Source: Oscillospiraceae bacterium
GTDB lineage: Bacteria > Bacillota > Clostridia > Oscillospirales > Oscillospiraceae
Direction of reading: 5' to 3'
Assembly (NCBI GenBank): GCA_017412765.1
Contig: JAFPWN010000060.1
Location: 1-55,811, forward strand
Length of the DNA: 55,811 nucleotides
The stretch's first letter is position 1. Every line of letters begins with the position of its first letter. Shown here in pieces: positions 1,395 through 19,372 of the stretch. A model generated the notes under the pieces. The model was not told where the DNA came from. It was given only the letters and a program-made list of their open reading frames with translations, and did not search any database. Made by a program: the position numbers and the translations under genes.

Positions 1395-4300
1395 TTATGA
1401 ACCTGCTGTGGAGAAAAACTCAGGATATACTCTCGCGTTGGTATAAATGATATGCGGATAGTCTGTTCCGCTCGAGAGCTCAACACACACAGCTGAGCTT
1501 CGGAGAAGCTTCACGTTCAAAATAACTTGGTAATTCGCGTATCGGAATTCCGAATCCTCAAAGCCTCCCGCTGCTCCCGTTTTGCCTGTTTTTACGACAA
1601 AATCGATTGGAATCTCGATCTCGTCCTCGCTGTCGGACAGCCAGCCGCTACCTGCAAACGTTGTTTTCGGCACAGTAACCGTAATCGCATTGTCAAGTGA
1701 AGCGCTGTAGTATTCAGTTCCACAGATTTCGAGTGAGGTCATAAGATCAGAAATATCAGCGTCCTGATAGCCGTTTTGCTTTTTCTTGAAGCTCCACGTT
1801 ATCTGCGCGTAATCCCAGCCCTCAGCCTCAGTTTTAACGTCCGCGAAGTTGAACACTCCGATGGTCTCGATTTTCGCCGTCGTCATATCTTCGTTATCCC
1901 ACGGGTTTACGCCAAGCTGCGCCATATCCCCGTTTTCAATCTGCGTTACTGGGTTATAGCTTAGCCTCGCCTTCTTTATGGTTACTCCGCTGTAATACCT
2001 ATTATTGTTTTCGTCAGTCTTCGTATTAAAGGAGTTGCTATAGGTCGTTCTTTCCTGCGTAGATCCGATGCTCGACCTAACATTTACCACTGTTCCGTGA
2101 GAAGAAGTTGCGTAATCGTTCGGAAGCAACGGGAACTGTGCGCTAATAGCGTCCTCGTTGTCGTAGCTCAAGGTTACAACGGCGTGAACAATATGGCTTG
2201 AACTACCCGAAGTTGTGAAATCAAGCATATCCTTCGTAATAAACTCTGCAAAGGACTTCTCGACTGCGCCAGTTGACGACGGCTCTTCATAGCTTCCCTT
2301 TGATACTCCGTCAACCGAGTATGTCGCGGATACAATCTTCGGTGCGCCGGTAATTCCCGTTATACTGCCACCCGCATCGGTCCTCAGCATATTTATCATA
2401 AAATTCTGATAAATCGGGAGCTTGTAGTATTTCAAATTTGAAAACATAGACGGCACCATTGAAACAGTTACGGTCATATCAACAGTTATTGTGTTTTGGA
2501 GTTTATTGAGAACGTAAAACCCCACATCAGGGTTTTGCCCCGTTGACGTTGTTTTCATTGTGAAATTAGACAGCGTGTAAATATCGCCCTCGTACATTGT
2601 AGATTGTCTGCCAAGAACGGCGCCATCACCGCCCCCCGTATCGTGAACGGCGGGCATAAGATTCCCGCGGTCAAGGCTGTTTGGCTCGCTCAGCGTATAA
2701 TCTACAACGCCGTTTATGTCGCCCGTGTAATAAGTCAAGAAGTACTTTTCAGTTGCTGGTGTTACGCCTTCAATCTCATATTTTGTTACTTCTCCGTCCG
2801 TAGCAGAGTTATACGGTCTGAGCCATTTATAATCGACACCGACCTTCGCCCTGACAGTGGCTTCGGTATCAGGACATTCAACGAACTTGGTGACGTCAGC
2901 GTCGGTCGCTGCTTTAGCTGTGACCTCCAGAAGCTCGCTCAGTGAAATCGGCTTGAAATCTGTCCCGCTGCCGTCAATCTCTGTATTGAACTTCGAAAAA
3001 TCCAATTCGCCCTCAAGTGAACCCTCGCTGGCGGGGGCAAATGCAGCTCCGAACGTCGAATAATAGTGCTGTCCTGTCTGAACATCAACAAGGCACAGTG
3101 GCGTATCGTTCGGCAAATCTTTGTAGCCCGAGCCCTTCACCATTCTGAGCGTTTTATTGTAGTTTTCGGTAAAGTCGATTCCCGCATTAATTGAACTTTT
3201 CCACGAGCTTTCGCCAGCGTCATAGCCGTATTCAATATGCGCAGTTATCGGGGTATTGTCGTTTTCGCAGACGAGCCTGTCTGTGGCTGTGTAGCCACCA
3301 CTCGAAGCGTCGTAGGATGTACCCGCTCTCAGCCTGACATCTACCGTGAACTTGAGAACCTTTTTCACAAGCACGGGTACATAGAGATGATACGCGATTT
3401 CGGCCGGATTTGACGGATTTTTGTACTTCACGTCTATTACGGTGAACGTGGTATCGTCGTTATCGACGTTCGCGTCGCTGACAAAGAAATAGCTTTCTTC
3501 CATATTCGTTAGAAACGGTACAATCTCTATGCTTCGATCCGAGGTTGACGCTGCACTAAATGAACCGTCGGCATTAAGCTTCACCTTATAGATTTCAAGC
3601 TCGTAAATAGCTGTTTTATCTGTATTCGCATAATTGTAGTCCGTGTTCGACAGGAGCTTGATATAGTTGTTAATGTATGTATTTGGATCCGAATTATTCG
3701 TCTCGAGGACGAGTATCGGGAAATCCGGTCCACCGTAGGTAACGCCGGACTCGGCCATCTCCGCACCGAAGGTCGAAAACTTTCCGTCATAGTCAGATCT
3801 AGTAATATTTTCCCTTGCAAGCTTGTAATAATCGTACTTGTCGCTTGTGCTGTCTGCCATATCGGAAAGGATCTGCTCTGCAACGGTAGTATAGACCCTG
3901 CCAGACTGCTCGTAACCCACGCCGTCGCTCATCAGGTGAAGCTTTGCAAGCACCCCCTCAGGATTCGTTGTGACATACGGGGCGGAACCCATTGGGCTTG
4001 TTTCAATAAGCCTATATTTTACAACATCCGCAAAGCTATCAGTATACTGGTTATATTTCCTATATGTAACCCCATCTCGCGTAATATTTTCACCATCAAA
4101 AGTATACTCTATGAGTTCTCTATCATTATTATTCTGACCAGACAAAACATGTGAATAAGAGTTACTCACTATCAATGTATACTTGTCACCCGCGTTGCCA
4201 TCTTGATACAGTCTAAATTTCGTATCTACGTTATTAAGCTTTGCTGTAACAAAATCTAACGCATCATTCTCGGCAATTACATATAGTCCATTGGCATTGT

Positions 4301-7300
4301 CTACGACTGCTGTTATATCATTTTGTTGCTTGTTGGCATCTAAATTCATTTTCACATTACCGGTATCGCTTAGAATGTACCAACCAGCTTGATTATTGCT
4401 TGTATCTATTGCTTGAATGGGTACATTTTCAGGCACCTTAATTCTTACATAATCACCCGTTTCATAGCTTCCTTCACTCGCAATTGCAGGCCACCATTTA
4501 TTTTTTAGTTTAATTGGGTCTCTATAAAGATTATACCTCATTGCTCCTTCATCTGTATCCGGATTATATCTTCTGAGCCACATAAGATCGACAGAATTAT
4601 ATAAATCACCTTTATTATGCCTTGCATGCAAATCGGTACTATAGCCGGTAGCATATTTTTCATACTTAACTGCAACAATTGTTCCATTATACTTTAACTC
4701 AACGTAGTCGTTTGAATGATCCGAGCTTAAATCATTGACAACAAATGCTTCAGTTGTAGCTACATCATTATTTATATCGTAGTCGCCAAGTGTCAGCCAA
4801 TCTTCATTTTTGTCATTCGTTGTGCATATTCCGTTATAATCGGCAAAGACGACGTAGCCACCGGAACCGTAAGGACTTAAAGTATCCTCTATATTGCCGA
4901 CTTTTTTTACTGGCGTTGTGTTCTGAATAGATACTCCGACGAGCTTGATTACTTTGCTATTATTATTTCCTGCAATAGAACCAGTCTTATTTGTTCCTCC
5001 GAAGACAGATATATCAGTATTGCTAATCAGTATATTATATCCGTTAATGCCTGACGAATTGTTTATTTTTCCAACTATTCCTCCCGAACCAACAATATAG
5101 GTATTTGAATTACCTCCATCAACAGTTTTTCCGTTGTCATCCGGTTCCGTCGCTGTTAGTACTGCTATTTCACAGTTTTCAATAGAAACATTTTTAATAT
5201 CAAACTTATAGTTGGATGCATCTATAAAACCTGCCAATCCGCCTGCCGAGCCCTTATCATTGTTGCTTTTCATTGTCTGCGAAGTTATTGAGTAATTGCG
5301 AATTATAATATTGCTGGCAGAAACAGCACCGGAGACCTTACTGAATAATCCTCCCGCGAGACGATATCCGAAAATAGAATTTTTGTCCGCTTTGCCTATA
5401 ATACTTATACCGTCAAGAACAGGAATAGTACCCGTTACCGTTCCCGCTATTCCAGCCGCAAACGATGCCTTGGGGCTGATCCTGATAAGATCAATATTGC
5501 TGATTATCCCGTTGCTCTGACTGTTATGAGCAATACCTACAAGACCTCCCGCGTTCAAGTCATCGTTCTGATTGTTTTTTGTTTTTATTATTGCGTCTTG
5601 TATAAGGTAGTTCTTAATAGTGATAACTGCGGTTTTAACGCCTCCGATGAGACCGCCTGCTGAAACCTTGTTGAAATTGGCACCTCTTGCTCCCAAAAGT
5701 CCCTTAGTTCCAATTTCTCCGATTTTTAGTTCAGTCTTGGAGGCAGCATTTGAGCCAACGATCGACAGCACCTTGCTTTGTGAACTATTGGAACCATTGT
5801 TTATTTGTCCTATTAGTCCTCCGGCCTGAATTCCGGCTGATACCGAAATATTTTCGCTGCTTTCAACGTCCGTAATATAAATGTCCCATCCCGAAGAGTA
5901 GCCTATTAAGCCTCCTGCGTAAAGTGGTGCTTCAATACTTGTACTCTTTAAGTCAATATCAAAAAACCTTGAAGTTGCCTTTATGACCCCGGCAAAGCCA
6001 CCGACTGTCAAAACGTTTTTGTTCTGTGTATCTGCTTTAGATGAGTCAGATGCATACTCAGCCAAGTAAAGATTCAACGAGCTTGAATAAGTCTCTTCTG
6101 TTAGGTTTCTCCACCAATAATTTACCTTTTCTCCGTCAGAGATATTATAAATATCGTAGCTGATATTCGCAGTCAGAGAAAAATCGTGTACCGAGCAAGC
6201 CTTTTCATCTGTCCCGCCACTGCTCAATTTGAGACGGTTGAAAAGTCCAAGGCCATTTGCTTCTTCCACCGCTGGATAGTTTTCTTTTGAGAAAGTTGCA
6301 TTCTCACTTGGATTATAGCCATATTCATTATACTTTATCGAAAGCGCAATTTCGTTTTCCCGACCATTAAATTCTTTTATTATCATGTAATTGCTAGAAC
6401 TGGTATAGAAGCTTCCTATTCCCCTGAATCCCTCCGGAACAACGCAGTCGCCTGTTATATTCACCGTCCAACCAGTTGAGGCGGCGCCGAGAGTACGGGC
6501 ATTGTAGCTTGTTCCTACCGGATTCGTATATGCTTTTACTATATACGGCGTCTTGCCGTCGGCTTCTCCGACTTCTGCGTCATAATAATCGCTGCTTCCG
6601 TCTCTCGCAACGCAGTAATTGCGCCACCCCTGCCAGGCTGTGCCGCTGAAATCAGAGTATGCTCCGCTCACCCCGGTAGCCGCGCCCGCGCCGGAGTTGA
6701 CTATTGCCGCAAGCACCCACAGTGCCTGACCGTTAGGGACGGTGATTGTTGTGCCGTTAACCGTGAGCTTGGATTCCTCGTTTGGGTCAAGGACGGGGAT
6801 ATCGTAATTCTTCGTGCCGTTTACGAGCTTGTAATCCGCCGCCGTTCCGCCTGACGGCACCTCACTGAAAACGTGTCCCGCGATAACCCTTCCGACTATG
6901 GGATTGACGTAGAGATATCCCGACTCTGCGATGGGAGTCTCCGTATCGCCGGCCACGCATTTCGTTGCAAGATCAAGACCCGACTTCTCTACGCCGAGAC
7001 CCATATTTCTGAAAACGAGAGATCCGTTCAGCACCACGCCGACGTAGCCGCCGACTGCCATAAGGCGGGTATGTGTTCCGCTTCCGAAGTGTATAGTCTT
7101 ATTGAACTCCACACTTACGCCGTCTATGAAGTTATCACCGCCCATAACCTGACCGATAACCGCGCCGTAGCCGTAAACGGTAGCTTCGCTGAATTTGTAT
7201 GCAAAATCTGCTGTTGCGGTTGAGTCTACCGTTATTATTGAATCTACCTCTCCCGTTTCCAGCTGAACGTCAATAGTTATGTCCTTAACGACAGCGCCGT

Positions 7301-10300
7301 TCGCATTGGCGATCAGCGGGTTTTTGGACTTATTCACTATCTCCGTATTATTCCCGTAAATCACGCCTCTGAATGCGTAAGGGCTGAGATAACCGTTATT
7401 GTTTGTAGTATTCTTGTCAATTCCGAGCCCCGCAAAATCCTTGTCAAGCGTGACGGTCTCTGTGACGTTATAATACGCCCCCGCAAGATATTTGCGAACG
7501 TCATCTCGATCAATTTTCTTATCACCGTTTTCAAATTTGTCGCTTGACGAGTTATATGTATATTCCGAATGATACGCCGAAGTATGTGCGGGATCTACAG
7601 GCTGAGTCGGCTGTGTCAATGGATTTGCCTCTGATTCAGCAAGCGCATCCGGCAGCGTAATCTTATACGTATTGTCAAGATCTTCTCCGTTAATGATTTT
7701 GGCAACCGTTTTAAGAAATTCACCGCCAAAATCGTGATACGGATCGTCATATCTTCCGCAGCCTTCAACTGAGTATTCAACCATTACGTTGACCTTCAGC
7801 TCATGATATTTTCCTTCTTTTGCCTGTTTTACGTAGCGGAGGAAGCCTGACGAGAAGTTGTAAGGATTATTATCGTTAAGCGGGGTTGTGTATTTTCTGT
7901 CTCCAATCGCCTGTTCCGCATAGGTGTAGTATTTATTCTCTTTTCCAGCATACTCAAGTGAGTTATAGACCTCCGCGCCGTAGGTCACCTGATGCTTTGG
8001 GCTGCTACCGTCGGTGGGGTAATCCTCGAGCTCGTTATAGTTGTATTCACTGTCGGCACTCTTTCTATCGTACTGAAAGCTGAGCATCAATGTCGCATCC
8101 TTGAATATCGAGCGCGGCGTTCCGTATGCAGTTTTGAGTTCTTCCTTAATACCAGTATCGGTAATGACATCTTCCGTTTCGCGCGCGTCCAGAACGATAT
8201 TTGAGAGGTGAAGGTCGATTCCGTAAGCGGACTCAGAGCCGACGTGTCCGATTAAGCTCGTCGCTGCATATTTGAGTGGATTATCTCCGACTTTTGCAAG
8301 CAGTGTATTATAGCTGTCCGCTTTTGTCTTCACCGTCGTTAGGTTTGCGGTCGTATTACTCCCGATAGCGTTGATAACGAGCGCACCATAACCCATTAGC
8401 GTGGGATTTCCCTCGGTTTCGGTATCCGTTCCGGCATTAAACGCACCGTCGAGCTCGAGACCTGTCAGATTCAGCGTCGTCTTACTCTGGTCGCCGCCGA
8501 GAGTACCGCGAACGAGGAAGCCCGAGTTGTCAGAAACCTTGCCCGAATTGCCGCTAAGCGTTACTGTGTTTACGTTGAGCGTCGCGGTGTCCTCGGTTTT
8601 ATTCACCGAATCATAATTTCCGCGGAAGTCGTCCAAGAGTCCGCAGTGCATAAGGTAGTGCTGCGACTTATAGCCGTCCGCCTGTCTGCGTGTGGAGCGG
8701 CAGAACTCATCAGTGTTGCCGCTGCCGGAGACGACCTTCTCGCCGTTCTCAATCTCCTCATTGTAAAATTTAATCGTGCAATACTGAACCGTCAGCTCCT
8801 CGCCGTAGAGGCTGACAGGGTAGTAGGAGTAGCCGCACATGTTATAGTCTATCTCGCTTCCACTCGTTCCGCCAATGGTATTGTTAAGCGGATCGGTCGT
8901 AAAGTCGCTTATCGTGCCGTGCGCATATTTATGGAGGCTCCAGAGCATAAGCCGTTCAGCGTTATAAGCGTCCGCGCTGCTGGGGTCGCTGGGGTGGTCA
9001 TGTATCTCGGCGACGTTGTAGTAATAGCGCGTGTTGGGATTGAAATTTTTGCTATTGCTTGACGCGGTTTTGCCGTAGGTCGTCTGATTCTGATAGGTAT
9101 TGCAGGCATCACCGCTCATTTTTACGGCAGCGTCAAGCTCAAGCGTGACGATTGCCTGTTTCATATCCTCAATCACGGTACCGTCGCGGCGTGAATAGGC
9201 GGCAACCTCGTCAAAAACGTCGAAATCGCTTCCGGTGAACGACAAACCGTCTATGTCGTATGTATAGCTTGCCCCGCCTACGTTTTTGTTATTAACGATG
9301 AGGTACAGCGCAGACTCAGTCTTTGTGTGCCCTATGTTGGTGATATCATGTATAGCATCGTTCACCGTGAAGCCGAAGGTGCTTCCCGTTCTCTGATTTA
9401 CGGTCATTTTATTGACTTTGACAGAATTTATCGTCCACTTTCCGCTTCCCATGTAGACGAGCCCGCCGATATTGGCATTAGCTGTCGCGGTAAGCGACGG
9501 TCCGTGTGTCAAATCATCTGTGCCGACCTTAAGGCCGGTAACGGTCGCCGTGGTGTTCTCCCAAGAGTAGCCGAGAACGCCTCCTATTCCGTTGTTTCCT
9601 CTTCCGGTCTCGGCAGAAGTCTTGGCGTTGATGGTCAGCTCGCCGAAGGTTACGTTGTTCGCAGTAACAGTCGCTGAGGTGGAAATAGTGCCGACAAGCC
9701 CTCCGAAGCGCGACTGAGCACCGTTGTTTTCCTTCGTATAGCTCCCCGCAACGGTGGTGGAGGTAAAGCCGAAGGTCTGTCCGCCGCCGTAAGCCGCCGC
9801 AACGGCACCGCCGCAGTAAACATTTTCGCTGCGGTTTGCATCTGTTTTGTCCGTAATCTCCGCCTTGAAAACGGACGAAGTATCGGTCACGCTTCCGCCC
9901 GCCGTCGACAGTCCGACCGCACCGCCTGCATATAGAAACAGCTCTTTGCCGTCGGTGTTAGCCGCCTTAAAGTTCACCGCCTCGTCAGCTGTAACGGTAT
10001 TTAGGGTCAACGGCTCTGTAACCTCAGCGGCAATGCCTCCGATTTTCCAGCCTGCATTATATGCCGTATCGCCCGACGCAACCACGTTTATTACGCCCGA
10101 TACGGTGAGATTTGATATACTTGCGTTTGCTCCCGTTTTTCCGAATAGTCCCGAGTTCTTGTGCGCGAATATCTCACCGTTGCCGCCGGTTGTGTTATAG
10201 TTCACGGAAACTGCGTTATTGGACGTATCAACACCGTAGCCCTCGCCTGTGGCGAGGGTGATGGTATTATTTTTGCCGTTGAGCGTACCTTCGAAGATCT

Positions 10301-13250
10301 GCGAACCGTCGTCGCGCGTGAAGCCTGTGAGACCTGTTCCTGAAAGTTTAATGTTTGTATTCGTGCCGCTGATTGTAAGCAGTTTGGAGGCTAGCAGCGT
10401 CGTACTCTTGTTTTCGTTTCCGCTAGTAAACTGAAGCGCACCGTCGGCAGGCTGATCCGTTATGTTTAGTTGGATATTGAGCGCGGTTCTGGCAAAGTCC
10501 GTGACCGTTTCCATCGAGGTCACGGCGGACTGAATGGTAACAGTATGAGCGGAAGAATCATATTTAAGTACGATACCATCTGAGCTATCATCGCCATGTT
10601 CTCCAAGTGCTCCAGAGCGAACTACCTCGCCCCAGTCGCCGATGTCGCCGTAGCGAGTGCCGCCGCGGACAAGCTTCCACCCAGAGGAAGTCGTGCCGGT
10701 ATTTCCGTCACCGAGTGCATAGACAAGACCGTTTTCTCTTTTGGATACAATTTGCCCACTGGTTGTGCTTGCTGTAACAGTTGTCACTCCGGCAAGGCGC
10801 AGTACGCCCGCATTCATTTCGTAAATAATACCGCCGGTAAACGTACTGCTGACGATCTTAACCTCATTGGAAACGTCAAGGAAGCTGCCGGCTTCGCCGA
10901 GGTTGCCGACTATTCCTCCGCTAACCGTGCCGGTAGTCTTCGCCGCCGCTTTATATACCTTAATGTAAGCGGGATATTCGTCTACCCTGGCAACGAGACC
11001 TCCATCGCCGCCGCTGCGGATTTTGGTCTTTATCTCTGTTAGCTCGAGAGTATTTGCGAGACTGCTCGTTTTAAAGAGTCCGATTACTCCTCCCCTGTTA
11101 GTTCCGCCCGAAAAGCTTGGGGAAACTTCTTGAGCTGTGTCTGAATACTTGGTTGGGCCCTGGGTAATTATGTAATCACGGCAGGTTTCGAGCATACCGA
11201 ATACGCCTCCGCAATACTTTCCTGCGGTGATTGTAGGCAAAAGCGTGTATTTTGAGAGATCATACTGATTCGGTGCAATGTCATCGTCATCCGTTGCAGT
11301 TCTCTTATAATATCCGAAAACGCCTCCTGCTCCACCGCCGGTCGTGACACCCGTCATGCTCGTGCTGTCAATCGTGACTGTTTTGCCGTTGGGAACGACG
11401 ATTTCCGCGTCGATTCCGTAGCCTACAAGTCCCCCGACAAACCCTGTAACATCGGGCGAAAGTGTCAGATTTTCAGGAGCCACCATCTTCAGAATCGGCG
11501 GAACGAGCGTAAGTGCGCCCTTTGCTCCGTTACCGACGGTGGCGGGTTCTTCGGTATTCTCTTCCTCGTTTTCGCTCTTCTCGACTGGTTCTTCGCCCTC
11601 CGAGGGTATGGCTTTGCCGCCCTCGTTGTTTACATCGTCGGAGGCGGGTTCTTCGGTATTCTCTTCCTCCTTTTCGCCCTGCTCGGCTGGTTCTTCGCCC
11701 TCCGAGGGTATGGCTTCACCGCCCTCGTCGTTTTCCTCTTCGGGGGCGGGTTCTTCGGTATTCTCTTCCTCGTTTTCGCTCTTCTCGACTGGTTCTTCGC
11801 CCTCCGAGGGTATGGCTTCGCCGCCCTCGTCGTTTTCCTCTTCGGGGGCGGGTTCTTCGGTATTCTCTTCCTCGTTTTCGCCCTGCTCGGCTGGTTCTTC
11901 GCCCTCCGAGGATATGGCTTCGCCGCCCTCGTCGTTTTCCTCTTCGGGGGCGGGTTCTTCGGTATTCTCTTCCTCGTTTTCGCCCTTGTTTTCTTCCTCT
12001 TTTTCTTCCTCAATGGCTGGCGGCTTATCTTCTCCCTCACCGTGTTCTCCAATCGCTTCTTCTTCGGGTTCTTCTGACAATTCTTCGGAGGGTTCGGAAG
12101 TCGTCTCTTCTGCAGATCCATCTGTCGGTTCTTCTGACGGCTCTTCAGCGGATACGTCTGTCAGTTTCTCTATCGGTTCTTCCGTTGCCTCTTTTGACTG
12201 ATCTGCAGTCTGTTTTGCCGTCAGTTCTTCCGAAGTCTCCTCTGCTGGTTCTTCCGAAGCCTCTCCTGCTACATCTAAATCATCGGGTCTGAACGCAATA
12301 AGTGAGGCTGGTCCGGAAATCGACGCGCCCAAGGACGGCGAAGGAGGTGTAGGCTGCTCAAGACTTATTCCACCGTCAATTTTTACGATTGTACCAGTTA
12401 TATCGTCATATCCGTTTAGTAACTCAAGCTTCGCTCCGTTGAGCATAAGTCCAACAAGTCCGCCAGCAGCGCCGGATTTGCTTACAACCTCAAATGCGCC
12501 TTCTGTCTTCGTAAGAGAAGCTACTTTCAACTTCGAGTTTTCTCTCATAACTCCGCAGAGTATGCCAACGTTATTATTGCTCTCAACCTTTGTCTTGTGC
12601 GACTTGTCGGTAAAGCTAAGCGTTACAACGGCATTCTCTCCAAGCTCACCGATTACTCCGGCATATACGCCGTCCGTCTTACCGTCATCCTTTTCTGAGT
12701 TGCAGATAATTTCCCAGTCCGCCTCGTAATAGCCGCCCTCGCCGTTAGAAACGGCGGTAACCTTCTCAGCAAGTAGAGGCGAATCAATCAATTTAGCGGA
12801 AGTTCTCGTAAACTCGAGCGCCTTTTTTTGGGGCACTTCGTCCGTCGTCTCGAAGCGTACGTTCGTTCCTAAATTTTTAAAAAGCGCCTTTGTCCCCTCA
12901 AAAACCGTTGCGCCGATGACGGCAAACCTTATTTTTCCGACAAAAGGTGAGTCGTCACTTCCGAGCTGGTTGTAACTGTCTTTCATTTCAAACTTTGCAT
13001 CTAAAGACGTAGAGATAAAAGTAATATTGTCGCGGGGATCGATTGTCCTCGTCATAAGCTCCTCAAACGTCAGCGAATTTGCATAAGTTGTTGCATCCCT
13101 TTCTGAAGCGCTACCGTAAACCTGCCAATCCACGGGAACGTATTGCTCACCCTCTGCATTAGCGGAAGGGAAAACAACGTCAGCCGTGTTCAAAACGCAC
13201 ACAAGCGCAAGAATTGCAGAGAGAATCCTAATTCCCATCTTTCTTTTCAT
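1395..13250 (-). CDS. Giant exported GLUG-repeat surface protein (~3950 residues)
   Basis: The chosen start is the ATG at 13250, which follows a GAGGTGG ribosome site; a GTG nine bases earlier is possible. An N-terminal signal peptide (basic MKRKMG, then a hydrophobic stretch ending near SANA) precedes a region with 'GGLVG'-type motifs. Next comes a Glu/Pro-rich low-complexity stretch (about residues 325-575) containing 34-residue tandem repeats. A very long beta-rich part follows, with many GLUG-like motifs (VGGLVGYG, AGGLIGYSSG, AGGLIGQIN, GGVIGLF) that suggest a beta-helix. No LPXTG, membrane anchor or recognisable enzyme domain was seen; the C-terminus ends in FFSTAGS. It is the last gene of a tight five-gene operon. 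Adhesin or matrix function is inference from architecture. Confidence 0.85.
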   Translation of the reverse strand: MKRKMGIRILSAILALVCVLNTADVVFPSANAEGEQYVPVDWQVYGSASERDATTYANSLTFEELMTRTIDPRDNITFISTSLDAKFEMKDSYNQLGSDDSPFVGKIRFAVIGATVFEGTKALFKNLGTNVRFETTDEVPQKKALEFTRTSAKLIDSPLLAEKVTAVSNGEGGYYEADWEIICNSEKDDGKTDGVYAGVIGELGENAVVTLSFTDKSHKTKVESNNNVGILCGVMRENSKLKVASLTKTEGAFEVVSKSGAAGGLVGLMLNGAKLELLNGYDDITGTIVKIDGGISLEQPTPPSPSLGASISGPASLIAFRPDDLDVAGEASEEPAEETSEELTAKQTADQSKEATEEPIEKLTDVSAEEPSEEPTDGSAEETTSEPSEELSEEPEEEAIGEHGEGEDKPPAIEEEKEEENKGENEEENTEEPAPEEENDEGGEAISSEGEEPAEQGENEEENTEEPAPEEENDEGGEAIPSEGEEPVEKSENEEENTEEPAPEEENDEGGEAIPSEGEEPAEQGEKEEENTEEPASDDVNNEGGKAIPSEGEEPVEKSENEEENTEEPATVGNGAKGALTLVPPILKMVAPENLTLSPDVTGFVGGLVGYGIDAEIVVPNGKTVTIDSTSMTGVTTGGGAGGVFGYYKRTATDDDDIAPNQYDLSKYTLLPTITAGKYCGGVFGMLETCRDYIITQGPTKYSDTAQEVSPSFSGGTNRGGVIGLFKTSSLANTLELTEIKTKIRSGGDGGLVARVDEYPAYIKVYKAAAKTTGTVSGGIVGNLGEAGSFLDVSNEVKIVSSTFTGGIIYEMNAGVLRLAGVTTVTASTTSGQIVSKRENGLVYALGDGNTGTTSSGWKLVRGGTRYGDIGDWGEVVRSGALGEHGDDSSDGIVLKYDSSAHTVTIQSAVTSMETVTDFARTALNIQLNITDQPADGALQFTSGNENKSTTLLASKLLTISGTNTNIKLSGTGLTGFTRDDGSQIFEGTLNGKNNTITLATGEGYGVDTSNNAVSVNYNTTGGNGEIFAHKNSGLFGKTGANASISNLTVSGVINVVASGDTAYNAGWKIGGIAAEVTEPLTLNTVTADEAVNFKAANTDGKELFLYAGGAVGLSTAGGSVTDTSSVFKAEITDKTDANRSENVYCGGAVAAAYGGGQTFGFTSTTVAGSYTKENNGAQSRFGGLVGTISTSATVTANNVTFGELTINAKTSAETGRGNNGIGGVLGYSWENTTATVTGLKVGTDDLTHGPSLTATANANIGGLVYMGSGKWTINSVKVNKMTVNQRTGSTFGFTVNDAIHDITNIGHTKTESALYLIVNNKNVGGASYTYDIDGLSFTGSDFDVFDEVAAYSRRDGTVIEDMKQAIVTLELDAAVKMSGDACNTYQNQTTYGKTASSNSKNFNPNTRYYYNVAEIHDHPSDPSSADAYNAERLMLWSLHKYAHGTISDFTTDPLNNTIGGTSGSEIDYNMCGYSYYPVSLYGEELTVQYCTIKFYNEEIENGEKVVSGSGNTDEFCRSTRRQADGYKSQHYLMHCGLLDDFRGNYDSVNKTEDTATLNVNTVTLSGNSGKVSDNSGFLVRGTLGGDQSKTTLNLTGLELDGAFNAGTDTETEGNPTLMGYGALVINAIGSNTTANLTTVKTKADSYNTLLAKVGDNPLKYAATSLIGHVGSESAYGIDLHLSNIVLDARETEDVITDTGIKEELKTAYGTPRSIFKDATLMLSFQYDRKSADSEYNYNELEDYPTDGSSPKHQVTYGAEVYNSLEYAGKENKYYTYAEQAIGDRKYTTPLNDNNPYNFSSGFLRYVKQAKEGKYHELKVNVMVEYSVEGCGRYDDPYHDFGGEFLKTVAKIINGEDLDNTYKITLPDALAESEANPLTQPTQPVDPAHTSAYHSEYTYNSSSDKFENGDKKIDRDDVRKYLAGAYYNVTETVTLDKDFAGLGIDKNTTNNNGYLSPYAFRGVIYGNNTEIVNKSKNPLIANANGAVVKDITIDVQLETGEVDSIITVDSTATADFAYKFSEATVYGYGAVIGQVMGGDNFIDGVSVEFNKTIHFGSGTHTRLMAVGGYVGVVLNGSLVFRNMGLGVEKSGLDLATKCVAGDTETPIAESGYLYVNPIVGRVIAGHVFSEVPSGGTAADYKLVNGTKNYDIPVLDPNEESKLTVNGTTITVPNGQALWVLAAIVNSGAGAATGVSGAYSDFSGTAWQGWRNYCVARDGSSDYYDAEVGEADGKTPYIVKAYTNPVGTSYNARTLGAASTGWTVNITGDCVVPEGFRGIGSFYTSSSNYMIIKEFNGRENEIALSIKYNEYGYNPSENATFSKENYPAVEEANGLGLFNRLKLSSGGTDEKACSVHDFSLTANISYDIYNISDGEKVNYWWRNLTEETYSSSLNLYLAEYASDSSKADTQNKNVLTVGGFAGVIKATSRFFDIDLKSTSIEAPLYAGGLIGYSSGWDIYITDVESSENISVSAGIQAGGLIGQINNGSNSSQSKVLSIVGSNAASKTELKIGEIGTKGLLGARGANFNKVSAGGLIGGVKTAVITIKNYLIQDAIIKTKNNQNDDLNAGGLVGIAHNSQSNGIISNIDLIRISPKASFAAGIAGTVTGTIPVLDGISIIGKADKNSIFGYRLAGGLFSKVSGAVSASNIIIRNYSITSQTMKSNNDKGSAGGLAGFIDASNYKFDIKNVSIENCEIAVLTATEPDDNGKTVDGGNSNTYIVGSGGIVGKINNSSGINGYNILISNTDISVFGGTNKTGSIAGNNNSKVIKLVGVSIQNTTPVKKVGNIEDTLSPYGSGGYVVFADYNGICTTNDKNEDWLTLGDYDINNDVATTEAFVVNDLSSDHSNDYVELKYNGTIVAVKYEKYATGYSTDLHARHNKGDLYNSVDLMWLRRYNPDTDEGAMRYNLYRDPIKLKNKWWPAIASEGSYETGDYVRIKVPENVPIQAIDTSNNQAGWYILSDTGNVKMNLDANKQQNDITAVVDNANGLYVIAENDALDFVTAKLNNVDTKFRLYQDGNAGDKYTLIVSNSYSHVLSGQNNNDRELIEYTFDGENITRDGVTYRKYNQYTDSFADVVKYRLIETSPMGSAPYVTTNPEGVLAKLHLMSDGVGYEQSGRVYTTVAEQILSDMADSTSDKYDYYKLARENITRSDYDGKFSTFGAEMAESGVTYGGPDFPILVLETNNSDPNTYINNYIKLLSNTDYNYANTDKTAIYELEIYKVKLNADGSFSAASTSDRSIEIVPFLTNMEESYFFVSDANVDNDDTTFTVIDVKYKNPSNPAEIAYHLYVPVLVKKVLKFTVDVRLRAGTSYDASSGGYTATDRLVCENDNTPITAHIEYGYDAGESSWKSSINAGIDFTENYNKTLRMVKGSGYKDLPNDTPLCLVDVQTGQHYYSTFGAAFAPASEGSLEGELDFSKFNTEIDGSGTDFKPISLSELLEVTAKAATDADVTKFVECPDTEATVRAKVGVDYKWLRPYNSATDGEVTKYEIEGVTPATEKYFLTYYTGDINGVVDYTLSEPNSLDRGNLMPAVHDTGGGDGAVLGRQSTMYEGDIYTLSNFTMKTTSTGQNPDVGFYVLNKLQNTITVDMTVTVSMVPSMFSNLKYYKLPIYQNFMINMLRTDAGGSITGITGAPKIVSATYSVDGVSKGSYEEPSSTGAVEKSFAEFITKDMLDFTTSGSSSHIVHAVVTLSYDNEDAISAQFPLLPNDYATSSHGTVVNVRSSIGSTQERTTYSNSFNTKTDENNNRYYSGVTIKKARLSYNPVTQIENGDMAQLGVNPWDNEDMTTAKIETIGVFNFADVKTEAEGWDYAQITWSFKKKQNGYQDADISDLMTSLEICGTEYYSASLDNAITVTVPKTTFAGSGWLSDSEDEIEIPIDFVVKTGKTGAAGGFEDSEFRYANYQVILNVKLLRSSAVCVELSSGTDYPHIIYTNARVYPEFFSTAGS
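11542..11990 (-). repeat. 102-bp tandem repeats in the giant surface gene
   Basis: Units start at 11542, 11644, 11746, 11848 and 11950 (the last partial), exactly 102 bp apart, so each encodes 34 residues. The units are nearly identical and encode an acidic Glu/Pro/Asn-rich motif with a GGEAIPSEGEEP core. In-frame repeats like these change copy number by slippage or recombination and usually form an extended stalk or spacer. Confidence 0.92.
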
Positions 13251-13295
13251 CCCATCCACCTCACTTTCTCAAAAACTTTATTAAGGGGCTTGCGG

Positions 13296-14276
13296 TTATT
13301 CGCCCCCACTGGGTTCAGACTCGGTAAATACACATTGAATGGCAATATCATTTGCCGTCAGTGGTGTCGTATATTCGGTATTGCGGTAGAACTGTATGCT
13401 GTAGGAATTCCCAGTCGTGACTGAGATTACAATACTGCTCATATTGTCGACTGTCGTTTCAGAAAGGCCTTTATTACTTAAAAATATTTTGCTGATCGTT
13501 ATCTTTGTTGAGTCCCAAGTAAGTTTTACGGTTCCGTTACCAGATCCGCTCACGAGATAATTAAAGCCGTATAGATTATCGAGCTTCTCCTGCGTTGATG
13601 CGTCGTCCGTAAGAGTCGCCGTCCATCCAGAATGGAGAATTACCGGCTTTTCCGTAACATCTATATAAACTCCGAGCTTCGTGGGAAGGTCAGAAGCGCT
13701 GTTCTTCGGAGTCGCTTCCAACTTAAGGAAGAAATGCTCCGTAAACATCGCACCCGGCAAAACAAGGTGATAGACATCGTCGGACTTAACTCCTCCCGTC
13801 AGCGTTTTATCACTCGTTATAGTAGTTGGACTTCCGCTGACTGCAACGTCGCCGACGATAACCGTCGCACTGCCCGTATATGCAGCCTCGTTTCCGCTTG
13901 AATCAAAAGTAATTAACTGCCCTGTCAGGTCGTAGGTTATATCCCTATTGTAGAACCATGTAGGATTTCCCTGCGGATAGTTGGATACCGTTACGGCATT
14001 ATTAGCGTTGTTTATTGTAATCGGTTCACCGCCATCAAGTTTTTCCTTTTCTTCAACGCTGAGATATATGCTCTTAAACGGGTACGTTGACTCGTTTGAA
14101 AGCATCCAGTTAGACGAAAACCTGCGCCCCGGAGAGCTGTACGCCGCTACGACGCGCTTTGCCCTAGTGGACTTTGTATATTCGGCGTATACCGTAAATC
14201 CCGTTGAAATCACAAGCGTGAGCGCGACGGCTACGATAAAGTATCTTCGCAAAAAATCAAGTATTTTCTTTTCCAT
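13296..14276 (-). CDS. Membrane-anchored exported protein of the surface operon
   Basis: 326 residues; ATG at 14276 with a GGGAGG ribosome site. One N-terminal hydrophobic segment (about residues 12-32, YFIVAVALTLVISTGFTVYA) is followed by a beta-rich extracellular part with no recognised domain. It lies 45 bp upstream of the giant gene start and 23 bp after the previous gene, so the genes are surely cotranscribed. It resembles its two upstream neighbours in layout (short basic head, single membrane segment, ~250-residue outer domain). A minor subunit or assembly partner of the giant protein is plausible but unproven. Confidence 0.8.
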   Translation of the reverse strand: MEKKILDFLRRYFIVAVALTLVISTGFTVYAEYTKSTRAKRVVAAYSSPGRRFSSNWMLSNESTYPFKSIYLSVEEKEKLDGGEPITINNANNAVTVSNYPQGNPTWFYNRDITYDLTGQLITFDSSGNEAAYTGSATVIVGDVAVSGSPTTITSDKTLTGGVKSDDVYHLVLPGAMFTEHFFLKLEATPKNSASDLPTKLGVYIDVTEKPVILHSGWTATLTDDASTQEKLDNLYGFNYLVSGSGNGTVKLTWDSTKITISKIFLSNKGLSETTVDNMSSIVISVTTGNSYSIQFYRNTEYTTPLTANDIAIQCVFTESEPSGGE

Positions 14277-15108: not shown

Positions 15109-16098
15109 TTACGTTTCTTTCTTTGTTGCTGCAATTACAGTTTTGCCATCCACACTCTCGGAATACGCATCAATATTCAGCTCCGATATAACGTAATATA
15201 TATTGTCGCCTATTGTCTGATCGCCGTTGTTGTACCCCTCTGAGCCGGTCGCGGGAGTATCAGCAGTTCCCTCCGTTATACCGTCAAAAAGAAAATCGAC
15301 TAACTCAGGTTCATCGACTTTGTAATTAGTCTCGGAACCCGGCACCTTGCCCAGCATTTCTTTTAGCTCGTCGTAGGTTCTAACCCACACCCAGTATAAC
15401 GTTACTTCATAAACCTCTCCTTTTTCGCTGGCTCCAGTTATGTAAATGGAGCTGTCCTCACCCTCTCCTAAGTGGACTATAGGGTTATTGATTTGATTGG
15501 AGTAAGAAACAACGCCGGCTGATTCAGTACGATTTGCATAAATTACAACGTGCCCGTTCAGCAGCTTGAAGGCTTTTAAGACCTCCTCCTGCGTGGCTGA
15601 ATCAACATTAGTGTAATCTCCGTTAACAAATTCAAAGCTGCTCGCACCGCTTTTTCTGATTCCCGCGATTGAAAGATTTGCCTTGAAAATGAGGTTATCC
15701 CTTTTTGGAAGAATTTTGAAAATCAGCTTTCCATAAGAACCTGGACGAATTTTTGTCTCTTTTTCGCCCTTGTAATACGAATCTATCTCAAGCTCGCAAA
15801 AAATGCCCGATTTATTAGAGTTCGTCTGCAACGGATCTATGTCGTTATAAAACCCCGCATTATTGAGCGGCGAAACCAAATTAGAGCCTAATGAAATGCG
15901 CTTATCAGATCCGATCTCAAACAATTCCGCATCGACTGTCACGGACGCGTCTGTGCCTGTGACATCTTTATTTGACGCAAACCACGCCATTGAGATGACG
16001 GCGGCGACGGTGACTGCGCCGGCTATCAGCGTCACGATGATCGTCGTTATTAGGTCTATGCTCAGCTTTGTCGATTGCTTCATCTCTTTTTTATTCAC
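15109..16098 (-). CDS. Membrane-anchored exported protein with AWFASN motif
   Basis: 329 residues. The start is a GTG at 16098 placed 7 bases after GGAGG; the ATG five codons later lacks good spacing. One hydrophobic segment (about residues 16-40) is followed directly by MAWFASNKDVTG. The outer domain is beta-rich and ends without an anchor. The motif and single membrane segment recall TasA/camelysin-like subunits, but no accessory signal peptidase or sortase is encoded nearby. It is the second gene of the five-gene operon. Function unknown; structural subunit is inference. Confidence 0.8.
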   Translation of the reverse strand: MNKKEMKQSTKLSIDLITTIIVTLIAGAVTVAAVISMAWFASNKDVTGTDASVTVDAELFEIGSDKRISLGSNLVSPLNNAGFYNDIDPLQTNSNKSGIFCELEIDSYYKGEKETKIRPGSYGKLIFKILPKRDNLIFKANLSIAGIRKSGASSFEFVNGDYTNVDSATQEEVLKAFKLLNGHVVIYANRTESAGVVSYSNQINNPIVHLGEGEDSSIYITGASEKGEVYEVTLYWVWVRTYDELKEMLGKVPGSETNYKVDEPELVDFLFDGITEGTADTPATGSEGYNNGDQTIGDNIYYVISELNIDAYSESVDGKTVIAATKKET

Positions 16099-16121: not shown

Positions 16122-16997
16122 TCAGTCTCTCGCCCTCAGAAAACGCTGCGGGTCCGGCTTGTAATTCTGTATGAAATCTCTGTCACGATGCCATTTTATC
16201 CTTGCTTCTGTATCCTTGCTCTTATTATGAGATAATATGAGGAAATCCAGAAAGCCGATCACAACATCCGCCGGAAGTATCTCAAGGTCAACTATCTCGG
16301 CAAGCAGCTCCTGACGCGCTTCGTCCTCTATGGAATATATTTTGTTTACACTATAGCCATAACATTTCAGTACAGATTTTGGGTTCAGCTTCGTCTCGAT
16401 CGCGCTCTTGTTAGCGTACCCCGTATTATCGTCAAATGTTGGCGTCAGCGCTGGTCTGCCGTATTTATGTACAAACTCCCTGTATAGGCTTACATCCACA
16501 TATGGAGGCAATCCTGCTCTGTCCCGAGTTGCGCGAATAACCTCGTACCTGCTCGTGCCAAGCGAATATAACAGCGATTCTATAACATTGTCGTTTGTAT
16601 GGCACTTTGAGTACTTGTATATATGACCACCATTTGGGCTGATCCTCAGGTCATTCCGAATTACAAACTCGCTTATTCTGCTGTCCTTCCATAATGGGTA
16701 TTTAACAGCGATCACCTTGAAGCTTCTTCCGCCGAGGCTTCCTTTCTTTCTGCGCTGTTTTGCGTATGCCGCTGAGAGGAGTTCTTTGCCAGTATCGGAG
16801 AGATAGAAAACCTTCTCGGCTTCGTTTGCGTCGGTTTCATCCGAAACTATGATATACTCGATTATTTCACTCTCATCAAATTCCGCTTTGATCGCAACCT
16901 CGGCGGACTGGGTTCTTCTTTTTCTCTCACTCTTTTTTATATCCGCTTGTTTGCCATTTCCGCAGTTGGCGTCAAGAGGAATAATCGTGTATTCCAT
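16122..16997 (-). CDS. Unknown cytoplasmic protein, first gene of the surface operon
   Basis: I chose the ATG at 16997 (291 residues) because GGAGAG lies 9 bases before it; an in-frame TTG at 17063 falls inside the 11-bp inverted repeat and has no ribosome site. There is no signal peptide or membrane segment. The N-terminal part is basic (KKSERKRRTQ, QRRKKGS), the middle contains ISPNGGHIYKYSKCHTNDNV, and the C-terminal ~60 residues are helical (ADVVIGFLDFLILSHNKSK, then a charged WHRDRDF segment). I do not recognise the family. Its place at the head of the operon and basic character would suit a regulator or assembly factor, which is only a guess. Confidence 0.75.
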   Translation of the reverse strand: MEYTIIPLDANCGNGKQADIKKSERKRRTQSAEVAIKAEFDESEIIEYIIVSDETDANEAEKVFYLSDTGKELLSAAYAKQRRKKGSLGGRSFKVIAVKYPLWKDSRISEFVIRNDLRISPNGGHIYKYSKCHTNDNVIESLLYSLGTSRYEVIRATRDRAGLPPYVDVSLYREFVHKYGRPALTPTFDDNTGYANKSAIETKLNPKSVLKCYGYSVNKIYSIEDEARQELLAEIVDLEILPADVVIGFLDFLILSHNKSKDTEARIKWHRDRDFIQNYKPDPQRFLRARD

Positions 16998-17049
16998 ATC
17001 GTCTTTCTCTCCGTTTGCTTTGTCGACGATAAGGCGTAGTCCGTGGAGC

Positions 17050-17156
17050 AAAGTAGACTTCAATCGCCTTGTTTACATACTACTTCTACTATATGGAATA
17101 TACCATTTTTGTCACAAAAAAGCAAGAGGAAAATAGTGATTCCAAAAGTCTACTTT
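17050..17156. repeat. Inverted 11-bp repeats flanking the operon promoter
   Basis: AAAGTAGACTT at 17050-17060 and its exact inverse at 17146-17156 enclose 85 bp containing the putative operon promoter. Each copy contains a small dyad, AAGT-AG-ACTT, with a central non-palindromic dinucleotide, as expected of a serine-recombinase crossover site. The right copy begins immediately after the stop codon of the truncated serine recombinase. This is compatible with a small invertible segment; inversion itself is not shown by a single sequence. Confidence 0.65.
17097..17125 (-). promoter_or_regulatory. Promoter of the surface-protein operon
   Basis: On the minus strand TTGCTT (17120-17125), a 17-base spacer and TATATT (17097-17102, with TGG just before it) form a good sigma-A-type promoter. 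Transcription would start near 17090 and read a ~93-base leader into the ATG at 16997. It lies inside the 11-bp inverted repeats. Confidence 0.65.
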
Positions 17157-17157
17157 A

Positions 17158-17730
17158 TTACACACCCTCCTCTTTCATCCATTTCAGAAACGTTTTGTGC
17201 GATACACCACTCATAATTGACGCATTTCTCGATGAAATTGTACCTTTTCGCCATTTATCTCTGATGGCAGAATAGTTTTCCGGCTTTTCCTTTGCAATCC
17301 TGCCGAAATGAACTCCTCTCGCCTTCGCCGCCGCGATACCCTCCGCCTGACGCTTGCGGATGAACTCACGTTCGGTCTGCGCGACGTAGCTGAGAAGCTG
17401 GAGAACAATGTCCGCGATAAGCGTTCCCGTCAGGTCGCGGCTCTGCCGCGTGTCGAGAAGCGGCATATCAAGGACTACTATCGCCGCCTGCTTTTCCTTT
17501 GTTATTATTCGCCGCTGCTCCAGAATTTCATCATAGTTTCGCCCGAGCCGGTCGATGCTCTTTACTATGAGAGTGTCGCCGGCTTTTAGCTTTTTGACGA
17601 GCTTTTTACAGTTAGCTCGCTCAAAGTCCTTGCCGGACTGCTTATCCAAGAAGATGTTTTTCAGTAAAAGCTGTGAATTGGTGTATAAGGTAAAAAGGTG
17701 CAGAAAGCAGAGCGTCCCCTTAGGGCGCAC
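17158..17730 (-). pseudogene. Serine recombinase lacking its N-terminal catalytic part
   Basis: From about 17658 onward the frame matches a resolvase/invertase: IFLDKQSGKDF, then SIDRLGRNYDEIL (conserved arginines), a long helix with QTEREFIRKRQAEGI, and a C-terminal helix-turn-helix (ISSRNASIMSGVSHKTFLKW). The first ~30 residues of such enzymes, which carry the nucleophilic serine, are absent. They are replaced by an unrelated reading frame (MRPKGTLCFLHLFTLYTNSQ) derived from the IS110 end. It cannot be active alone. It lies directly beside the inverted repeats at 17050-17156, so it may once have inverted that segment. Confidence 0.8.
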
Positions 17731-18077
17731 TGAGAAAGATGTTGGGCTGGCTGGAAAGCCTTGCCAAATGTCTGTAACACAAAGATGAGCCGCACAAGTT
17801 TCATTGCATCGTAAGATATTGCAACGTTGTAGTGCTTGCCCTCAGCCCGCTTCTTGGCGAGATATGCGGCAAAGGACGGCTCCCAATGAGAGACGAATTT
17901 AGCAGCACCGAATAGCGCGTATCGCAGGTAGCGTGAAACTCGCTTCTCCATGTGGGCGTAAGCACCGGTTGCCTTGAGCTTGCCGGATTCATAGGTATGA
18001 TAGCCCACAACCTTTGCGTCAATCTTTTCGTCGCCGTATCTACGGCAGAACGTGCAGTGTTCAAATTTCATTCTCAC
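17661..18077 (-). pseudogene. C-terminal fragment of an IS110-family transposase
   Basis: The stretch YESGKLKATGAYAHMEKRVS, then YLRYALFGAAKFVSHWEPSF, then YLAKKRAEGKHYNVAIS is the conserved C-terminal (transposase_20) part of IS110-family transposases. The N-terminal DEDD catalytic domain is missing. The fragment starts at the 3' end of the MobC-like gene and ends inside the truncated serine recombinase. An IS110 insertion followed by deletion probably removed both the relaxase expected after mobC and the front of the recombinase. Confidence 0.75.
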
Positions 18078-18634
18078 TCATCGTGTGCTTCCTCCTTGAC
18101 CAGATATGCCTCCCTGATTTTCCGGAAGACAGCTTCGGTTTCCTCCAACGCCTTGTGAAGCTCCGGCCCGTCAATGAAGCCGTGTTCATTCGCCCTGATG
18201 AGGATTTGGTTGAGGTAACTGCCGGCACGCCTCAGCTCCGCAATAAGTTGGGAGACGTTTACGACCGGAGCCGGTCTGACCTTTGCCGCTCTGATCTTTG
18301 CGCGGATGTACTTGGAGCAGTCGAGCCCGGCTTCTGCTGCCTTACGTTTTACCTCAGCCAGTTCCTCCGGCGTAAAGCTAATCTTGATGCGGAAGTCCCG
18401 ATTCTGACGGACGGGCTTGCTCTCTGTCGGAGCAGGGGTCTCAGGGGATTCCCCCTGACAGGCTGTCTTTGGTGTCAAATCCGGATTTGTACCCCACAAG
18501 ACGTTGCTTGCAAAGATTGAGTTATCCAATTCTAGCGGGTCAAGGCCGGGCGAAGTTTTCGCCTCCGGTTCGGTCTTTTTTACTTTGCTGAAAGAAAACA
18601 GTTGGTTCGCAATGTCTTTTAATCTGAGCTTCAT
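18074..18634 (-). CDS. mobC: MobC-like relaxosome accessory protein
   Basis: 186 residues; ATG at 18634 after CAGGGAGAA. Residues ~78-185 read as MobC: FRIKISFTPEELAEVKRKAA (ribbon-helix-helix part), YIRAKIRAAKVRP, then LIAELRRAGSYLNQILIRAN. MobC proteins bind near oriT and help a relaxase open the DNA for transfer. The first ~75 residues are low-complexity and polar. A relaxase gene normally follows; here only the IS110 fragment does, overlapping the mobC stop by 4 bases. The protein could still act with a relaxase supplied in trans. Confidence 0.75.
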   Translation of the reverse strand: MKLRLKDIANQLFSFSKVKKTEPEAKTSPGLDPLELDNSIFASNVLWGTNPDLTPKTACQGESPETPAPTESKPVRQNRDFRIKISFTPEELAEVKRKAAEAGLDCSKYIRAKIRAAKVRPAPVVNVSQLIAELRRAGSYLNQILIRANEHGFIDGPELHKALEETEAVFRKIREAYLVKEEAHDE

Positions 18635-18745
18635 TTTTCAATTCTCCCTGTTTCCAGTTAATTACCGCCGCCCAATCAAAACAGTGGGCATTTTTTGCTG
18701 AAATAACGGCCATTGTCAGAGCAATCCGAACCGTTCCGCCGAGAT

Positions 18746-18890
18746 GGTGGGTCCATTTTTCCGAAAAGAGACCCCACTTTTGTGGCTTGGCTCTGTCTCC
18801 TTACGGTGACGATGATGACGATGATTTTGACACCGTCACCGTACCCGTATTCATCGTCACCATCGTCACCTATCGTCACCCGCTACCCTG
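18746..18890. repeat. Repeat-rich intergenic region, possible oriT or iteron cluster
   Basis: This region lies upstream of mobC. It contains GTGGGTC (18747-18753) facing GACCCCAC (18770-18777), the small palindrome CCAC-TTTT-GTGG (18774-18785), and an inverted repeat TACGGTGAC/GTCACCGTA (18802-18810 and 18835-18843). At least four further GTCACC units occur between 18834 and 18890. Dense inverted and direct repeats beside mobC fit an origin of transfer or a replication iteron set. I see no recognisable nic sequence. Confidence 0.5.
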
Positions 18891-18891
18891 C

Positions 18892-19050
18892 TCAGGCGTG
18901 GTCTGACTTCAAATTCCCGGTCAATTCCTCAAAATCCTTGTTTTCTGCGTCTTCATCGGTTATACTGTTGTCAGTAGACTTTTTGAGTGATCGCCCGTCA
19001 TCTGCGCCAACAGATGTGTTCAGGGCGGTCATTTCTTTTTCATCAGTCAT
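18892..19050 (-). CDS. Small hypothetical acidic protein
   Basis: 52 residues, ATG at 19050, overlapping the end of the RHH reading frame (ATGACTGA), which suggests translational coupling. The sequence MTDEKEMTALNTSVGADDGR is polar and acidic throughout, with no membrane segment or motif. A gene of this size between the RHH gene and the MobC-like gene is plausible in such elements, but coding is supported only by the overlap and a GGAGAA ribosome site. Confidence 0.4.
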   Translation of the reverse strand: MTDEKEMTALNTSVGADDGRSLKKSTDNSITDEDAENKDFEELTGNLKSDHA

Positions 19051-19372
19051 TCTGTTCTCCTTTCATTCCGTATAGCGTAACGGTGATCAGCTCGATCAGC
19101 TTCAGCAGTTCATTGGTTACGCCGCCTGCGTTTTCAATTCGCTGTAATTCAGTTAGCACGGCGGCGAGCTGATTTCTGAGAGCCTAATACACTCTTGGAT
19201 TTCCCTGCACGACGATGTCCCGGTTCATGCACCGGCGATAGCAGTATTCCTGCTTTGGAAGCCCGGAGAGCTTCACCGCTGCATTTATCGCTTCGTTTTC
19301 TTTGGGTGACACCCGAAACCCTACGGTTATATTTCTCCAGCGGTTGTGATTATCGACATTTTTAGCAGACAT
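19043..19372 (-). pseudogene. Ribbon-helix-helix protein gene interrupted by an in-frame TAG
   Basis: ATG at 19372 overlaps the end of the integrase gene. The first 62 codons (MSAKNVDNHNRWRNITVGFR) parallel the intact 109-residue protein at 42326-42655 (MSAKNVDRHNRSRSRTIGFR) nearly residue for residue. A TAG at 19184-19186 then stops it. Beyond the TAG the same frame continues for 46 codons (ALRNQLAAVLTELQRIENAG) and matches the C-terminal half of the intact relative, ending at 19043. This is therefore one gene with a nonsense codon. The relative is a DNA-binding, MobC-like relaxosome or regulatory protein. Confidence 0.75.

Follow-up and report, generated by a model that had tools for sequence, protein, structure and literature searches.

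A putative short invertible promoter, probably frozen in the ON orientation, beside a truncated serine recombinase at the head of a clostridial operon

The stretch of DNA analyzed here (the window) comprises 55,811 nucleotides of an Oscillospiraceae bacterium (contig JAFPWN010000060.1), and carries a pair of inverted repeats between a serine recombinase gene and an operon on the same strand. These repeats are quite likely the two crossover sites of a short invertible promoter that once belonged to the adjacent recombinase, and that would now be frozen, probably in the ON orientation. As judged from its sequence, the locus is of the kind "serine recombinase plus short invertible promoter", or a descendant of that kind; it is assigned there because of the paired sites of the recombinase relatives, their inverted segments, the spacing, and a site at a fixed distance of 25 bp behind a conserved codon. 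Comparison with these relatives places the repeats in a family, yields rules for position and spacing, and shows other members in opposite orientations.

The locus has the following features:
1395..13259, minus strand: P1, 3954 aa, the last operon gene
13296..14276, minus strand: P2, in the same operon as P4
14300..15082, minus strand: P3, in the same operon as P4, with an AF2 model
15109..16098, minus strand: P4, first gene of the conserved four-gene operon (operon conservation), with a hydrophobic N-terminal stretch
16122..16997, minus strand: P5, 291 aa, first gene after the putative switch, with GGAGAG before its ATG
17050..17060, minus strand: site 2, the operon-proximal crossover-like site, an exact inverted copy of site 1
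17061..17145, no strand: the 85-bp segment between the arms, predicted to be invertible from the arms and their spacing
17115-17088, minus strand: promoter-like site GTGACA-16-TATAGT, 10/12 consensus match, facing the operon (ON)
17109-17137, plus strand: weaker, opposite promoter-like site TTGTCA-17-AATAGT, 9/12 consensus match
17146..17156, minus strand: site 1, the recombinase-proximal crossover-like site, reading A-AAGT-AG-ACTT on this strand
17158..17730, minus strand: small serine recombinase, N-terminally truncated, with family homology spanning 17161-17673
17661..18077, minus strand: ORF with the C-terminal fragment of an IS110-type transposase (NCBIfam NF033542), abutting the recombinase fragment

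The left arm AAAGTAGACTT and the right arm AAGTCTACTTT form an exact 11-bp inverted repeat, and each contains an AAGT-NN-ACTT dyad with AG as its center, as an earlier sequence-only reading of this DNA had described. The core-to-core distance is 95 bp. That reading had also placed the right arm directly against the recombinase stop codon, which holds to within a single base (17157), but had overlooked the truncation at the other end of the gene. By itself the arm pair is unremarkable and weak evidence, since eight exact inverted repeats of 11 bp, their arms 20-200 bp apart, are present in the window, compared to 2.8 ± 2.2 in 100 dinucleotide shuffles. This abundance, together with the poor quality of site 2, would suit a chance repeat, an explanation that is nevertheless barely credible: not one of 20,000 shuffles contained such a pair with the dyad or the family motif in place, and both the 25-bp position of site 1 and the spacing fit the recombinase family. 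Without the dyad or motif, a repeat at the place expected from that family arose in 40 of the 20,000 shuffles. An 11-bp inverted repeat with an inner dyad occurs once in the window, and at least once in 5 of 100 shuffled windows.

The sequence AAGTAGACTT has three occurrences in the genome, the third inside an ORF that presumably resembles dapA. The locus is known in one orientation, with no match to the switch region in 59 relatives, and an exact pattern scan of viral contigs for the switch gave 0 matches. The arms were also considered as transposon ends and rejected as such, the 107-bp unit being without a target-site duplication (GGAGC and ATTAC flank the arms). A second inverted repeat (16980-17002 / 17088-17110, 19/23 bases), longer than the arms, joins the -10 region of the promoter-like site to the start-codon region of P5, and is one of the points that speak against the crossover-site reading.

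Relatives of the recombinase came from 34 genomes of the genus, 20 of which (window included) have a match, and from a scan of genome contigs, of which the best 80 of 583 confirmed matches were used; the taxa among the matches listed are uncultured Oscillospiraceae, uncultured Lachnospiraceae, Oscillibacter, Blautia, Merdimonas, a Selenomonas and others. This set holds 110 loci in all, 104 of them at least 55% identical to the query, and 93 are distinct with enough flanking sequence, window included. The loci include near-copies of each other, so that the counts below are not independent; L080, from the same genus, is identical to L052 of G025 over the compared 650 bp. From -120 to +330 relative to the recombinase stop codon, exact inverted repeats of at least 10 bp were found in 60 of 93 loci, compared to a mean of 5.0 of 93 in 10 shuffles, and those of at least 12 bp in 42 of 93 loci, compared to 0.3 in shuffles. 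Control 450-bp stretches upstream of the recombinase contained repeats of at least 10 bp in 10 of 89 cases and of at least 12 bp in none of 89.

The sequence-only reading had staked itself on repeats also standing beside intact homologous recombinases, and they do: an inverted GTGTAC/GTACAC pair lies behind the recombinase in 69 of the 92 loci other than the window, compared to 1-4 of 92 in ten shuffles. Two of the 69 pairs, those of L147 and L155, are weak, and 23 of the 92 loci, among them L010, are without the pair. The main family type has GT in the first core. At five loci (L056, L059, L062, L063 and L064) the reading frame of the recombinase itself contains the first crossover site, and inversion would therefore alter the C-terminus of the enzyme. 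The genes downstream of some family loci look, in our estimation, like pilus, flagellin, lipoprotein or phage-defence genes. Those of L101, L105, L103, L104, L106 and L119 are presumably DNA methylase-, helicase- and other defence-like genes, and most of these loci have the site pair. A defence-protein library gave no match to the window recombinase or to P5.

In the recombinase tree, the window falls in an 11-row clade with a support of 100/100, on a branch of 0.37, the bootstrap not being settled. Its neighbor in the tree is L010, with weak support (83/30), and L007 is its nearest relative by identity (71%) among the loci listed. Other clade members stand before what we take to be prepilin-like genes or a Tad/Flp pilus-like set, and the seven that have a scored pair carry AC in the first core. 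In 10 of the 11 rows, window included, [AG]TA[CG]AC starts exactly 25 bp after a conserved Trp codon, and no site was found at that position in L010. The wording of this site is GTAGAC in the window, ATACAC in L071 and GTACAC in the eight others.

Scored without its core on the family matrix, site 1 reaches 13.4-15.3, compared to a family 5th percentile of 13.0 and a median of 23.9. The best scores in 300 shuffles have a 95% point of 10.1 and a maximum of 16.9, which is above site 1, and a stretch within the recombinase gene scores 10.0. Site 2 scores -1.5; it resembles the family only over the central 11 bp, short of the family match of ~24 bp, and by its sequence appears to have either diverged or decayed. 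The window has the cores AG/CT where its relatives have AC/GT, and site 2 shows the corresponding exchange (CT for GT). A serine recombinase needs matching cores in its two sites, so that this paired change is what such an enzyme would demand.

The core-to-core distances of the family cluster at 106, 113-117, 125-128, 134-139 and 146-147 bp, with three above 200 bp. For 66 pairs, with one identical pair dropped and the window and L007 left out, the Rayleigh R is 0.795 at a period of 10.4, and none of 5000 jittered sets is as high; this signal is inflated by shared ancestry, as all seven pairs from the clade of the window measure 116 or 117 bp. Among the pairs shorter than 180 bp, 59 of 63 lie within 2 bp of a 10.5-bp lattice. 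The 95 bp of the window, 21 bp or two turns shorter than in its clade, is 0.27 bp off the family lattice at a period of 10.5; the peak is broad (R 0.75-0.79 over periods of 10.25 to 11.5), and the window fits only for a period of ~10.4-10.5. The best-scoring pair of L007 is also 95 bp apart, with only 14 of 24 bases alike.

Near-palindromic 10-mers on either side of a promoter match, 95 bp or about nine turns apart, could also be operators at which a transcription factor folds the promoter DNA into a loop, a purpose that the spacing would then serve. This is very unlikely, since site 1 occupies the crossover-site position of its clade, and its two dyads stand in inverted orientation, like the site pairs of the family, in which segments of both orientations are known. 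Crossover sites of a recombinase thus remain the preferred reading of the two dyads.

Opposite orientations are observed between different species of the family. In three locus pairs the flanking sequences run the same way, and the stretch enclosed by the sites matches its counterpart in inverted orientation. With the arms trimmed, the inner segments of L101 and L105 are 48% alike as they stand and 81% when one is inverted (flanks 92 and 93%), those of L132 and L148 are 48% and 84% alike (flanks 77 and 90%), and those of L148 and L153, the weakest pair, are 54% and 68% alike (flanks 75 and 74%). As L148 occurs in two pairs and L148/L153 is the weakest, we count at least two independent cases. 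All three pairs are of the main family type and lie outside the window's clade, within which the blast comparison gave no inverted segment match. Contigs end within 300 bp of the recombinase on its downstream side in 8 of 104 loci and on its upstream side in 3 of 104, and the contig of L073 ends inside the site; these contig ends near the sites fit mixed orientations, weakly. With position and spacing matching the family, and both orientations present in other members, the earlier assignment of the window to invertible promoters with serine-recombinase sites holds.

The claim that the segment encloses the only good promoter of the operon, facing it, survives in part. GTGACA-16-TATAGT is the top minus-strand match across 12.8-19.4 kb, but eight further minus-strand matches there reach 9/12, one of which shares its -10, and TTGTCA-17-AATAGT lies on the plus strand inside the segment, where it would face the operon after inversion. 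The ON orientation accordingly rests on 10/12 versus 9/12, the opposite match being almost equal, and is probable at this level of sequence matching. The promoter scan found 13 promoter-like sites, compared to 8.3 ± 3.1 in shuffles, so that the match is not strong evidence by itself. In the family, 29 of 67 segments contain a promoter-like match of at least 10/12 between their sites, compared to 3.75 in mononucleotide shuffles. The better match points toward the downstream gene in 13 of these 67 segments and toward the recombinase in 40, with 14 ties.

The adjacent recombinase had been taken as functional, which its sequence does not support. The A1 model matches the ORF with an E-value of 3e-91 from model position 29 to 199 of 203, and the Pfam match (PF00239, Resolvase) begins only at model position 36. 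The GY-x-RVS segment, present in 16 of the 16 other rows of alignment A1, is absent. The catalytic serine is presumably the serine of the RVS motif, and is missing with that segment. The N-terminus was sought in three frames over the junction and was not found. Upstream of the recombinase homology lie unrelated sequence, then the IS110 C-terminal fragment, then a NikA-like mobilisation gene. The match of that fragment to NF033542 has an E-value of 9.7e-6, covers model positions 263-337 of 343, and at 24.9 bits is below the curated cut-off of 140. The mobile-element debris, which extends over 17661-20450 and also includes a tyrosine integrase, is possibly linked to the truncation.

The switch could still be active if other cells or strains held an intact recombinase, if a recombinase acted in trans, or if the truncation were an assembly error; we consider this unlikely. 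The arms have kept their identity over 11 bp despite the broken recombinase, the genome is a single draft assembly of 74 contigs, and it encodes five other Resolvase-family proteins, one of which is truncated close to the end of a contig. These five are, however, placed outside the family, because the family model finds only one other match in the genome, with an E-value of 0.024; the genome, which is 98% complete, thus yielded no further member of the family. Moreover, the junction stretch occurs once in the genome, besides a piece of the mobilisation gene that is 70% identical, and thus offers no obvious template for a repeat-driven chimaera. Site 2 is also weak for an active switch. With the catalytic N-terminus lost and no relative found that could act in trans, the switch is most likely frozen, and the present-day phase switching proposed for this genome is left without support.

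Downstream of the putative switch, the gaps between P5, P4, P3, P2 and P1 are 23, 26, 23 and 36 bp. P3 is found in 9 of 394 genomes of the order, this one included. All four genes P4-P3-P2-P1 occur in this order in seven of the eight other loci, and the remaining one, L041, has P4-P3 at the end of its contig. The AF2 model of P3 shows a long N-terminal helix and a β-rich body (mean pLDDT 67), and a PDB profile search with P3 gave no convincing match (best E-value 0.0098). The hydrophobic stretch of P4 may anchor it in the membrane, and P1 is probably a giant surface protein; its Glu/Pro-rich repeats lie at 11500-12300 of the window. From the hydrophobic N-termini and the size of P1, we infer that the operon products are surface proteins.

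P5 was considered as a further member of the conserved operon and rejected, with no P5 match at an E-value of 1e-3 in the eight other operon loci. Of the 393 other genomes of the order, 4 contain relatives of P5, and the scan of genome contigs found none; in the stretches read around these four, nothing matched the window's operon or recombinase. In L290, a resolvase-like ORF (1970-2740, labelled by eye) lies ~3 kb from a P5-like piece (5646-5882). The predicted structure of P5 has a mean pLDDT of 37, too low for use. Inheritance of the switch together with the operon was rejected as well: in eight other genomes, the 450 bp upstream of P4 contain neither an 11-bp inverted repeat (spacing 50-250) nor GTGTAC/GTACAC. 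A promoter-like match is present upstream of P4 in seven of these eight and absent in L044, with start codons of our choosing. Since P4-P1 occur elsewhere without the repeat pair, this lineage probably acquired the switch and P5 in front of an operon that was already present.

As for the mechanism, an intact recombinase of ~200 aa in the family would attach to both AAGT-NN-ACTT dyads and pair the two sites in helical register. Cleavage at the two-base core and religation would then invert the segment, leaving its promoter to face toward or away from the downstream operon. The two window sites would once have recombined in this way. The recombinase of this genome has lost about its first 30 residues, including the catalytic serine, next to the IS110 fragment, and the switch, now presumably locked, would leave a promoter predicted to work facing P5 and the surface operon. 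A fuller account remains tentative, and rather doubtful as a whole: a widespread clostridial family of switches of ~95-150 bp would work in helical register, and in this lineage the paired core change from AC/GT to AG/CT would have given the switch a private specificity before loss of the recombinase fixed a phase-variable surface operon in the ON state.

The combination of the recombinase family, a site just behind its gene and a partner at whole helical turns amounts to a sequence rule, which would find such switches without reads in many gut Clostridia. The window itself may be a switch caught after the loss of its enzyme. If so, it would open the question of how frequently phase variation disappears, and in which state such loci then stay.

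Hin/Gin-type DNA invertases are serine recombinases that act on inverted dyad sites with a two-base core, and the Hin sites are ~1 kb apart, with a Fis-bound enhancer. The window resembles them in its serine recombinase and inverted dyads, but its sites are 95 bp apart, compared to ~1 kb for Hin. Mpi of Bacteroides is a serine recombinase that inverts many surface-gene promoters in trans; against its model (NCBIfam PRK13413), the window recombinase scores 41, compared to a cut-off of 272. RecV of C. difficile is a tyrosine recombinase. Groups of clostridial invertons have been described, the most significant of which is linked to tyrosine recombinases, and the word serine is absent from the main text of that report (PMC11892184); the report on the RecV switches describes short invertible segments in Clostridia (PMC5903667). 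As far as these texts go, both systems share short invertible segments with the window, and differ in having a tyrosine instead of a serine recombinase. Our literature search returned no description of the GTGTAC-site serine-recombinase family, and an overlap with another inverton group of PMC11892184 is possible, to go by its main text. The closest comparison is thus with the clostridial GTGTAC-site switches themselves. In these, site 1 lies immediately behind the recombinase gene or within its 3' end, the inverted partner is mostly 106-147 bp away (63 of 66 pairs) with a promoter-like site inside, and the downstream genes are surface-like in many cases. The window shares with them the place of site 1 and the adjacent recombinase in the same orientation, whereas its recombinase is truncated, its cores are AG/CT rather than AC/GT, its spacing is 95 bp and its distal site is degenerate.
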